Assembly (NCBI RefSeq): GCF_900302455.1
Contig: NZ_ONZG01000006.1
Coordinates: 186,001-250,000, forward strand
DNA length: 64,000 bases
Direction: 5' to 3'
From: Falsiruegeria mediterranea M17
Lineage (GTDB): Bacteria > Pseudomonadota > Alphaproteobacteria > Rhodobacterales > Rhodobacteraceae
Shown here: positions 5,586 to 41,074 of the stretch, in pieces
Position numbering within the stretch: position 1 is the stretch's first letter
Layout: every line of letters starts with the position of its first letter
Made by a program: the position numbers and the translations under genes
The notes under the pieces: model-generated
Told to the model about the DNA's origin: nothing
The model's input: only the letters and a program-made list of their open reading frames with translations
Database searches by the model: none

Positions 5586-5660
5586 CTCCCGCCCGTCGTC
5601 AATTTTTCTGGCGAAAAACCTCCTCCCGTTGGGCCGGGCGCCGGGCTGCGCCCGGCGCGG
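5586..5660 (+). repeat. Structured intergenic repeat, copy A
   Basis: Core block CTCCCGCCCGTCGTCAAT, a small hairpin (TTTTTC, loop TGGC, GAAAAA; 5603-5618), the motif CCTCCTCCC (5619-5627), then GTTGGGCC and a GC hairpin with 9-bp arms (5638-5646 and 5650-5658). Copies B (35590) and C (40999) have the same architecture and orientation. It lies between the divergent DUF1254 and GFA genes. No T-run follows the large hairpin. The strand given is that of the CCTCCTCCC reading; which strand is transcribed, if any, is unknown. Confidence 0.8.
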
Positions 5661-5783
5661 CACTGCTTGACGCAGTATTTTGCCCGCGGCATCGGGGCGG
5701 GGAAACATTTCGCCAGGGCGGAACCTTTGTGGTTGGGAATGTGCTATTTACGAGAGCGGGGCCTGCGCGGGAGGAGGCAGCAT

Positions 5784-10390: not shown

Positions 10391-10711
10391 TCACGCCTCG
10401 TGCAAAACCGTCTCGAACCCTTCGAACTGCGGATGGCCGAGGATCGGGCTTTCGCCCTCGCGCTTGCCTGCGTTCTTGTGCGCATCGCGAAACTGCTGGG
10501 ATTTGGTCCAGGCCTCGAAATCGGCGCGGCTGTCCCAGATCACGTGGCTGGAATAGAGCGTGTGCTCGCCGCTCGACGGCCCCTTGAGCAGGCGGAATTC
10601 GCGAAAACCCTTGAGTTCCTTCAAGCGGCTTTCCCGCGATGCCCAGATGGTTTCAAACTCCGCCTCTGACCCCGGACGGATCTTGAAACGGTTCATGGCA
10701 ATAAAGCTCAT
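10391..10711 (-). CDS. ABM-domain protein of the heme-degrading monooxygenase type
   Basis: Encodes 106 residues of the antibiotic-biosynthesis-monooxygenase (ABM) fold. The Asn-Trp-His set used by IsdG-like heme oxygenases seems present: Asn in MNRFKIRPG near residue 7, Trp in FEAWTKSQQF and His in RDAHKNAG. HmoA/HmoB-like proteins have this pattern and open heme to release iron, but many ABM proteins do other work, so heme activity is an inference. It is a single gene convergent with trpB. Confidence 0.8.
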   Translation of the reverse strand: MSFIAMNRFKIRPGSEAEFETIWASRESRLKELKGFREFRLLKGPSSGEHTLYSSHVIWDSRADFEAWTKSQQFRDAHKNAGKREGESPILGHPQFEGFETVLHEA

Positions 10712-11448
10712 CGGCTGTGCTTTCTTCTAAGATTGCAAGAGGATGGCGCACGGCGGGCCTCTGCCCCTCACCGCTGGCTGCGGCACATTAGAGCGAAAGT
10801 TGTGCGCAGGTGCAAGCGGGCAGGTCGGCTTGCAGCCCATTGAGGACATTTGTTCCCAAAGCAGCGAACGCTTGCTTGGAGCCCAGAGTGTCAAATGCTG
10901 CACCAGTTGCGAAGTTCAGCTATGCGCAGATAGCGACCTTTGCAAAGTTTCGCTGACGGCCCAGAGCCGACGTTCGAATATTCTTCTGGACACGGCAGCC
11001 ACAGCCCACATTGCAGACATTCGTAAATCTTGCAGCATTCTCAGAGTGAGGGTGGCCAGGTTGTTGACAAAAAGCACCTTTGCAGCCGCAATTATTGCAA
11101 TGGGATATCTCTTCGAAGGTGCGTCAAAATACGTTGCATTCTAGCAGCCGGTCTCACCCAACCCGCTATTTAACGCGCCCGAAGACCTCAAATCAAAAAC
11201 ACACTTTCGCGGCATCTTGCCCATACATTTTCTGGCGTCGCATCACCTGAAAAATTCAAATCTTGCACTTTGCTCGTTTCGCTTTCATACGAGTCGCTTC
11301 GGTCAGCAGAATATGTCGCATTCAACAACTCCTCCAATCTAGCAGATTTAGAAATTACAGCTAAAGCTTGATTGAAAACCCCTAAATAGACGGCACAGAC
11401 TCCAACAACACTTGCCGTTGATAGGAGCCGAATAATTGTGTTTCGATT
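10712..11448. other. Gap of about 740 bases without a convincing gene
   Basis: No recognisable product on either strand; a plus-strand open frame at 10743-11144 has no homology that I recognise and no ribosome binding site. The stretch 10952-10979 (GCTGACGGCCCAGAGCCGAC...) resembles, in reverse complement, the sequence near 13975-14005 on the other side of the RTX gene (about 21 of 28 bases). The composition is more AT-rich near 11150-11448. Confidence 0.45.
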
Positions 11449-35589: not shown

Positions 35590-35675
35590 CTCCCGCCCGT
35601 CGTCAATGCCCCTTGCGGGACATCTCCTCCCGTTGGGCCAGGCTCAGGCGGGCTTTGCCCGCCTGAGCCTGGCCC
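35590..35675 (+). repeat. Structured intergenic repeat, copy B
   Basis: Same plan as copies A and C. The 5' block CTCCCGCCCGTCGTCAAT is identical to copy A over 17 bases or more. The small hairpin is TGCCCC, loop TTGC, GGGACA (35607-35622): different bases, but still paired except one mismatch. TCTCCTCCC follows (35623-35631). The large hairpin has perfect 19-bp arms, 35635-35653 and 35657-35675, with a TTT loop. It lies between pth and the serine hydrolase. Confidence 0.8.
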
Positions 35676-35749
35676 CCCTCTTCGTGCCGTCCGCAGGACG
35701 CAAGGCCGACAGGCCGCGCAGGTGCCCCTCGTTCGGGTGTACGACTTGA

Positions 35750-36439
35750 TTAGTTGAAACGATCCATGAGCTTCTGCAGGGGCGATCGATTGTCGTCAGT
35801 GGTTTGAGTTTCGGCGTCTTTTGGCTTTGCCGCCGTCTCGGCCTTGGCGGCGGTTGACTTGGACGACCGCGGCGGCGCCGTTCGCAAGGCCACAGCGTTC
35901 ATGAACTTGCCACCGTCGCCCTGCGCCAGGTGCGCCGCTCCGTCGGACACGCCGCGCAACACATTGTCCAGCCAGGTTTCGTCCGCCTTGGCAAAATCGT
36001 GCAGCACATAGCCCGAAACCAGCTCCTTGCGGCCCGGATGCCCAATGCCCAGACGGACCCGGTCATATGTCGCTCCGATGTGATCATGGATCGATCGCAG
36101 TCCGTTGTGTCCCGCGTGACCGCCCCCTGCCTTCACACGGACCTTGCCCGGCGCAAGGTCGAGCTCATCGTGCAGCACGGTGACGTCGGTGCTGACCAGC
36201 TTGTAGAACCGCATCGCCTCACCCACAGACTGGCCTGATCGGTTCATGAAGGTCTCAGGCTTGAGAAGCAGCACTTTTTCACTGCCCAACCGACCCTCGG
36301 AGATCTGACCCTGAAACTTGGCCTTCCACGGTCCGAACCCATGGTCGCGGGCAATTTCGTCCAGCGCCATAAAGCCGATGTTGTGTCGGTTGCGGGCATA
36401 TTTGCCACCGGGATTTCCCAACCCGACAAAAAGTTTCAT
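35750..36439 (-). CDS. pth: Peptidyl-tRNA hydrolase
   Basis: Encodes 229 residues. It frees tRNA from peptidyl-tRNA that drops off the ribosome. [20 protein letters not shown] contains Asn10 and the catalytic His20; [16 protein letters not shown] with the key Asp, and [11 protein letters not shown] are intact. The start at 36439 was chosen because the family starts with [10 protein letters not shown]; the frame is open 58 codons further upstream, but that part is not conserved. The C-terminal tail of about 40 residues, rich in Ala, Lys and Thr, is common in Rhodobacteraceae. rplY, its usual operon partner, lies 2.5 kb upstream with another gene between. Confidence 0.96.
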
Positions 36440-36854
36440 GGCGCGCCTCTCGGGTTTGTCACAGGTTCGGCGCCTAGATGCACCGAAATGCGTGAAAAAT
36501 CCAGCAGCAGCAGGTTGGAAAAATTGTCGAGACGGTGCCGTTGTCTGATCGGATGCATCGAAAGGGTGAAAACTGTGGTCAGGACATGGAGCGCTGGACA
36601 GTGCCCTGGCCAAATGGCTGCGTGCGGAAACCGATCATTCGGTTTCACTTGTTGCCAAGTGGGAATAGGCCCTCTCAGGGATCATCTGAGCGACTATGAG
36701 ACATTTCGGAGTGTTTGGGGCAAAGGCCGGGATCCTGTCACAGCTTTGCGCCCCGCAAGTCTATGAGCTGTCTGACCAGCCTGGGAAAAGATGCTGCCGA
36801 ACATCGAGCAAAAGCGGCATCTACGGGACAACGCACGCCCCCGAGGTGCCAAGT
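36440..36854. other. Gap of about 415 bases between pth and DUF3604
   Basis: Several open frames on both strands, none recognisable. It must include the pth promoter because the DUF3604 gene has been placed between rplY and pth. Nothing else seen. Confidence 0.4.
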
Positions 36855-40998: not shown

Positions 40999-41074
40999 CT
41001 CCCGTCCGTCGTCAATTTTTCTGACGAAAAACCTCCTCCCGTTGGGCCGGGCGCCGCGCTGACGCGCGGCGCGG
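40999..41074 (+). repeat. Structured intergenic repeat, copy C
   Basis: CTCCCGTCCGTCGTCAAT (one change from A and B), small hairpin TTTTTC, loop TGAC, GAAAAA (41016-41031), CCTCCTCCC (41032-41040), GTTGGGCCGG, then a hairpin with 9-bp arms GCGCCGCGC / GCGCGGCGC (41051-41059 and 41064-41072). The arms differ from copy A by paired changes. It lies between lldD and the M24 gene. Confidence 0.8.

Follow-up and report, generated by a model that had tools for sequence, protein, structure and literature searches.

What are the short, structured repeats that recur between genes in this Rhodobacteraceae genome, and do they serve their host or only themselves? The 64,000-nucleotide stretch analysed here (the window) contains three of them, which a sequence-only reading had taken for a three-copy family of either mobile miniature elements or RNAs related to the CcsR/‘cuckoo’ small RNAs. 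The description as a family of structured repeats has stood, as has covariation in their small hairpin; the kinship with CcsR/cuckoo RNAs has not.

Results

The copies in the window

The three copies begin exactly where they had been placed, at 5586, 35590 and 40999, all on the + strand, and share the plan ascribed to them: a small hairpin, GTTGGGCC and a terminal GC-rich hairpin (Table 1). The near-identical 18-base block at their start gives three matches in the window at up to three mismatches, against 0.21 expected from shuffling; one of 100 shuffles likewise reached three. YCTCCTCCC is found on the + strand at 5619, 35623 and 41032, and once on the - strand, at 5769. The start assigned to copy B was correct and its end was not, as the element runs on through two hairpins (35686-35721), its tail ending 28 nt from the stop codon of a peptidyl-tRNA hydrolase gene (35750-36613, -).

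Table 1. Parts of the three window copies, with positions counted from the first base of the window.
Feature	Position	Strand	Basis
Copy A core	5586-5635	+	covariance model R1, 79.4 bits
Copy A head, CTCCCGCCCGTC	5586-5597	+	pattern match
Copy A P2 hairpin, loop TGGC	5603-5618	+	core of copy A
Copy A CCTCCTCCC	5619-5627	+	motif scan
Copy A tail, CTCCCGTTGGGCC	5623-5635	+	core of copy A
Copy A terminal hairpin P3 (GCGCCGGGC-TGC-GCCCGGCGC); type II	5638-5658	+	read from sequence
Copy B core	35590-35639	+	R1, 77.7 bits
Copy B P2, loop TTGC; one C-A mismatch on + (G-U wobble on -)	35607-35622	+	
Copy B terminal hairpin P3, 19 bp, loop TTT	35635-35675	+	read from sequence
Copy B type III tail, two small hairpins (GTCC-GCA-GGAC, GGCC-GACA-GGCC)	35686-35721	+	tails of type III copies
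Copy C core; P2 loop TGAC	40999-41048	+	R1, 76.5 bits
Copy C terminal hairpin P3 (GCGCCGCGC-TGAC-GCGCGGCGC); type II	41051-41072	+	read from sequence

Family size and taxonomic spread

The three-copy family is real, and its size is not three. Across the whole 5.28 Mb host genome the 18-base block has 113 matches at up to three mismatches (reversed control, 10), and R1, a covariance model made from the 50-nt core of 24 copies, finds at least 134 members at E <=0.01 (among the best 150 of 2857 candidates scored). All counts of place given below are based on 130 of these, four being left out, and those of neighbour orientation on 129, one more copy having a neighbouring gene called on one side only.

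Searching relatives with R1 yielded the additional copies that a genuine family should have: 10 of 61 genomes, the host’s own included, carry matches, all of them within Rhodobacteraceae. The host and its three congeners, which include Tropicibacter sp. R16_0 (G002) and Tropicibacter sp. Alg240-R139 (G001), contain at least 98 copies each, and six other genera contain 2 to 46. The exact core pattern (CTCCCGCCCGTC and CTCCCGTTGGGC, with a gap of 18-38 nt) is present in 30 of 295 Rhodobacteraceae genomes (29 of 294 genera), and its reversal in none of the 295; among 289 genomes sampled from the class the sole match is the host itself, so that none is found in the 285 outside the family. A scan of a collection of named sequences found the pattern in at least 109 stretches. 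Among the 80 titles listed, two stop short of the family, one giving Alphaproteobacteria and the other Rhodobacterales; the others name Rhodobacteraceae or genera placed there in the wide GTDB sense, among them Leisingera, Phaeobacter, Ruegeria, Tritonibacter, Tropicimonas and Gemmobacter.

Carriage by phages was considered and rejected, the exact pattern having no match in a viral contig collection. A blastn search of plasmids with copy B and its tail likewise returned no match, which is weak evidence with so short and structured a query. No Rfam family was reached at threshold, and the open-access literature, searched by topic and by sequence string, yielded no description of the family.

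Architecture and covariation

The core consists of a head (CTCCCGCCCGTC), a hairpin of free sequence (P2), a tail (CTCCCGTTGGGCC) and a GC-rich hairpin (P3). What stays constant across genera is CTCCCGCCCGTC, then a hairpin, then CTCCCGTTGGGC with a GC-rich hairpin behind it; CTCCCGTTGGGC is kept and CCTCCTCCC is not, one of the cross-genus sets having been fetched with a pattern that fixes CTCCCGTTGGGC and leaves the preceding bases free. A GTRG-type tetranucleotide at the hairpin foot is a hallmark of REP/RAYT systems; the GTTG that precedes P3 in nearly all copies differs from it.

Three types of copy can be distinguished. Type I (63 of 130) carries an inverted second arm, which ends in CGGGAG at 119-240 nt from the start of the head, type III (24 of 130) has a CCGTCCGCAGGACGC tail, and the remaining 43 are type II or unclassified; these figures follow the stricter of two rules, the looser one giving 69, 37 and 24 for types I, II and III, respectively. 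A second conserved module, GCCGTCCGCAGGACGCAAGGCCGAYAGGCCGCGCAG, is present in 24 of the 130 copies, for example at 35686-35721 in the window. The type I consensus folds as a four-helix junction, with both-sided changes in P2 and in P4.

The expected covariation in the stems is found in P2, where 97% of alignment cells are paired, 32 cells are changed on both sides and the covariation score is 0.60, none of these values being reached in 500 shuffles; the number of pairs with a both-sided change and the number of pair types both lie within the shuffle range. The top five corrected mutual-information scores among 106 distinct aligned copies are all P2 pairs, in an alignment that was fitted to R1 and in which most rows are equal in length at P2. 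In named copies the P2 regions share little sequence, and at least five pairs form in 109 of 111 distinct ones; when folds were compared with shuffles, at least 48 of 50 were beaten by P2 in 63 of 111 copies and by P3 in 49 of 110. The hairpin between the blocks is thus held as a fold, not as a sequence. A further helix might form between GCCC in the head and GGGC in the tail; both of its sides are almost invariant, and one copy (C22:309140) has a compensating pair.

Two further observations concern single genomes. In G018, R1 matches are often facing pairs whose starts lie ~270-355 bp apart (C8:39947+/40302-, C7:64144+/64427-), and several are close to contig ends (within ~300 bases), which would fit assembly breaks at a longer, two-headed repeat. 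At position 1585 of locus L073 (G008 C1, shortly behind 557808) the terminal hairpin region is followed by a run of 47 C, which is either a real homopolymer or an assembly fault.

Strand preference of the hairpins

Mismatches within the stems reveal which strand is favoured, although the copies share ancestry and the events behind these stem and loop counts are therefore not independent. With transition mismatches weighted equally, P2 holds 48 C-A vs 4 G-T mismatches in the host (71 distinct stems) and 45 vs 7 in named copies (97 stems), and P4 of type I holds 3 C-A vs 49 G-T (46 stems). Permuting the partners with composition kept reached the P2 share in none of 2000 trials and the P4 share in none of 1000, and so overturned the notion that the C-A mismatches of P2 are noise. 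The same control removed a bias that the raw counts of P3 had seemed to show; neither P3 nor P1 has a strand preference beyond composition (960 and 133 of 1000 permutations, respectively). Since C-A on one strand is G-U on the other, P2 appears to be maintained on the - strand and P4 on the + strand, with their G-U wobbles preserved there.

Four-base P2 loops in the host read TNNC on the + strand (GNNA on the - strand) in 70 of 77 cases, 38 of those 70 not being GNRA, and P4 loops read GNA on the + strand in 42 of 54. The P2 loops of named copies are mixed (26 of 46 for four-base loops), and their three-base loops lean the opposite way (26 of the form RNA on the + strand vs 12). Loops of the GNNA and GNA types closed by C-G are unusually stable in DNA. 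The P2 bias is retained where both neighbouring genes are on the + strand (C-A:G-T 12:2 in the host, 9:2 in named loci), places at which no called gene is transcribed on the - strand; a trend of P2 with context in the predicted direction is weak (p 0.08).

Place relative to genes and gene ends

With genes called by our own codon-model caller, none of the 130 copies lies inside a gene, and the claim that the repeats occur only between genes therefore extends from the window to all copies examined. With the element read as +, the neighbours of 129 copies are +- (convergent) in 88 cases, -- in 20, ++ in 19 and -+ (divergent) in two; the corresponding numbers on contig C24, from 107 spaces that hold no element and measure 100 bp or more, are 16, 25, 30 and 36. 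Convergent places are thus in excess (88/129 vs 16/107, Fisher p 5e-17) and divergent ones in deficit (2/129 vs 36/107, p 3e-12). In named relatives with both neighbours known (n=95) the arrangements are +- 59, ++ 16, -- 12 and -+ 8, and 59 of 95 elements are convergent against ~36 of the 270 remaining spaces of these loci. None of the three window copies lies between convergent genes, and none is therefore typical: B and C have a tandem (--) context, and A stands between a divergent DUF1254 gene (-) and GFA gene (+), the latter missed by our caller and recovered with Pfam. The common reading direction noted for them holds for the window only and is incidental, because the family occupies both strands (70 + and 60 - among 130 copies).

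Where the left gene points at the element, the median distance from stop codon to head is 27 nt in the host (107 copies) and 26 nt in named loci (75 copies); among convergent copies with a defined right end, only 34 of 56 have both flanks of 45 nt or less. Such tight spacing could alternatively arise from insertions filling short convergent gaps. Tandem contexts differ by type, with 3 ++ and 12 -- for type I and 16 and 8 for the others (p 0.008): one-arm copies more often turn the head to the stop codon, and two-arm copies the second arm.

The reported absence of a T-run after the last hairpin was borne out, no U-tract being present at most copies. Among gene ends next to an element, 13 of 100 on the head side and 12 of 97 on the far side (25 of 197) have a terminator-like site with a U-tract; among element-free ends on C24, 13 of 38 convergent and 17 of 92 tandem ones do. 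Such sites are rarer at element ends than at element-free convergent ends (p 0.003); the tandem rate is near that of element ends, and the contrast is therefore one with convergent ends only. The scan may itself give false positives at nearly the frequency seen at element ends. Rho-dependent terminators have a C-rich, G-poor stretch, free of structure, ahead of the end point. Over the 90 nt that follow the stop codon, pyrimidine-C dimers number 0.211 per nt on the side of the head arm, 0.175 on that of the inverted arm and 0.136 in the comparison set, an excess that is partly circular because the head itself is C-rich.

Constraint and turnover at orthologous sites

Contig C24 (321 kb) carries 11 copies, 10 of which have a counterpart at the corresponding place in G002 (~90% DNA identity). 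The eleventh is copy A, next to the GFA gene; G002 has this gene without the copy, and G001 has both. In G001, more distant than G002, both A and B are present and an unrelated gene-sized stretch occupies the place of copy C, so that two of the three window copies, A and C, are each absent from one of these two congeners.

Across the ten orthologous pairs the head has 4 substitutions in 120 positions and the tail none in 130 (4/250 jointly), vs 43 in 199 (~22%) in the 20-nt flanks (Fisher 1e-12). P2 has 42/243, the variable loop of P3 88/317, the P3 arms 15/171 and 17/257, P4 and the end 23/288, and the upstream, mostly coding DNA 558/5846; only the head and tail are therefore clearly below the coding rate. 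That they are nearly unchanged beside flanks so diverged argues against neutral relics. Gene conversion could add to this constancy, in which case P2 would be expected to be evened out too. At two of the ten sites (C24:144502, C24:161678 and their G002 partners) P2 is a wholly different hairpin between unchanged blocks, a pattern in the aligned sequences that suggests exchange or conversion between copies.

Presence varies between congeners at the three sites looked at, and no clean insertion with target duplication was found at the present/absent sites examined. Where G001 has a copy on its contig C1 (L174 16071-16120, -), the host and G002 carry unrelated intergenic DNA; turnover at this site is by whole-gap replacement, not clean insertion. 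Orientation is unrelated to contig GC skew (71 of 126, p 0.18; four copies on C14 were left out because the skew of that contig is mixed). Mobilisation by a RAYT was rejected, as the Y1 transposase domain PF01797 is found in neither the host genome nor its three congeners (G000-G003); 6 of 27 element-bearing genomes searched have a match.

Apart from the repeats, the window from ~10820 to 33974 has no blastn match (E 1e-5) in the corresponding regions of G002 and G001, both sides of it align, and a G002 match at 10391-10816 borders it. This stretch is possibly a genomic island or a replaced segment.

Comparison with CcsR and cuckoo RNAs

Kinship with the CcsR/cuckoo RNAs was rejected on three grounds: Rfam searches at gathering and permissive thresholds, the neighbourhood of DUF1127 genes, and conservation of the motif. 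No Rfam family matches the window at the gathering threshold, and copy B scores 18.7 bits with suhB (threshold 41) and 10.7 with ar14 (threshold 58.8). The supposed anti-Shine-Dalgarno motif, CCTCCTCCC, lies between P2 and P3, outside the hairpin loops, and varies across genera. In ar14 the motif is reported to occupy unpaired regions of three hairpins (PMC10746234), and CcsR RNAs are reported to be co-transcribed with a DUF1127 gene (PMC10253847). None of the six DUF1127 genes in the host genome is within 5 kb of any of the 134 copies.

Discussion

The reading that we prefer, and to which we give about an even chance, is that these are REP/BIME-like structured repeats of Rhodobacteraceae, put to use by their present hosts as gene 3'-end elements. 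Some host function at gene ends is probable. That this function is exercised at transcript ends, by termination or end protection without U-tracts, is a finely balanced proposition, and a part for Rho is put forward tentatively, Rho being the simplest choice for termination because no U-tract follows. Within the transcript of the adjoining gene, the pyrimidine-rich unpaired blocks would signal loading or pausing for termination, and the hairpins beyond them would shield the 3' end after trimming. Where a copy has two arms, each would serve the gene that it abuts, and the outer hairpin would be the last stable one met by the transcript from the far gene; the preferences of P2 for the - strand and P4 for the + strand would follow, because each is the last hairpin for a far-gene transcript. 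The P2 preference in ++ contexts argues against this distal-hairpin scheme or asks for antisense transcripts, and an origin in single-stranded DNA would explain it. The most specific version, a once-mobile dispersed family turned, in this genus, into a common bidirectional transcript-end cassette with a near-gene loading signal in each arm, outer hairpins for the far gene and selection on opposite strands, we consider doubtful.

The main rival is a single-strand-DNA mobile repeat: selfish REP-like elements whose hairpins would act as single-stranded DNA for some transposase and whose place at gene ends is that of least harm. High copy number, mosaic 3' modules and BIME-like inverted two-arm copies are in keeping with it, but the host and congeners have no Y1 transposase and the viral contigs no exact match. 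It would suit the opposite strand preferences of P2 and P4 and the loops of type GNNA (P2, -) and GNA (P4, +), given the stability of such loops in DNA and the many that are not GNRA, although orientation shows no bias by GC skew. The differences in presence between congeners and the replaced P2 hairpins at orthologous sites could likewise reflect mobility; against this, all but one of the C24 copies keep their place in G002, no clean insertion was seen, and head and tail are nearly unchanged between diverged flanks. We regard the rival as possible without being probable. The earlier idea of a mobile miniature element accordingly keeps some standing as an account of origin, with the missing RAYT-type transposase and the stable places counting against it.

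A DNA-level binding site between convergent genes, by analogy with the nucleoid-protein or gyrase binding proposed for some BIMEs, would fit the convergent place and the two nearly invariant blocks. A double-stranded site needs neither the conserved fold of free sequence in P2 nor a strand preference, and this alternative is unlikely for the element as a whole; for the two blocks alone it may hold. Ordinary intrinsic terminators would share the place and the GC-rich hairpins, but the conserved parts are unpaired blocks, not a hairpin with a U-tract, and the scarcity of terminator-like sites at element-flanked gene ends makes them very improbable. Trans-acting small RNAs akin to CcsR/cuckoo, with CCUCCUCCC as an anti-Shine-Dalgarno sequence, are least credible of all: CCTCCTCCC (TCTCCTCCC in copy B) does lie between two hairpins, but it is outside their loops and not kept in other genera, Rfam and DUF1127 genes offer no link, and more than 100 copies lie at gene ends.

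If the preferred reading, as elements of gene 3' ends, is true, a large group of marine bacteria has many of its gene ends served by repeats that stay below every Rfam threshold, and an error that is easily made, that of taking CCTCCTCCC strings for anti-Shine-Dalgarno RNAs, is corrected. The strand-preference test also provides a way to tell the working strand of repeat hairpins, a question that arises for other REP-like families too.

Among known systems, CcsR, cuckoo and ar14 RNAs share with the family the CCUCCUCCC string of its genus-level consensus; ar14 differs in carrying the motif in unpaired parts of hairpins, and CcsR in its DUF1127 neighbour. The RIME repeats of rhizobia and ERIC are alike by description, as intergenic mosaic palindromes of Gram-negative bacteria, whereas in the sampled genomes the exact pattern of the present family does not occur outside Rhodobacteraceae. 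In phage lambda, tR1 is a Rho-dependent terminator of the form rutA-boxB-rutB; by analogy, both it and the repeats would have a hairpin framed by two C-rich unpaired stretches where a transcript ends, but the repeats have many copies and nearly invariant blocks, and their Rho dependence is only putative. Closest are the REP/BIME elements of enterobacteria, extragenic imperfect palindromes at gene 3' ends and between convergent genes, with inverted pairs and a mosaic structure, all of which the present family, with its more than 100 copies, reproduces. It differs from them in apparently lacking the GTRG foot and, in this genus, in having no RAYT/Y1 transposase, in framing a hairpin of free sequence with two nearly invariant pyrimidine-rich blocks, and in keeping its outer hairpins on opposite strands.
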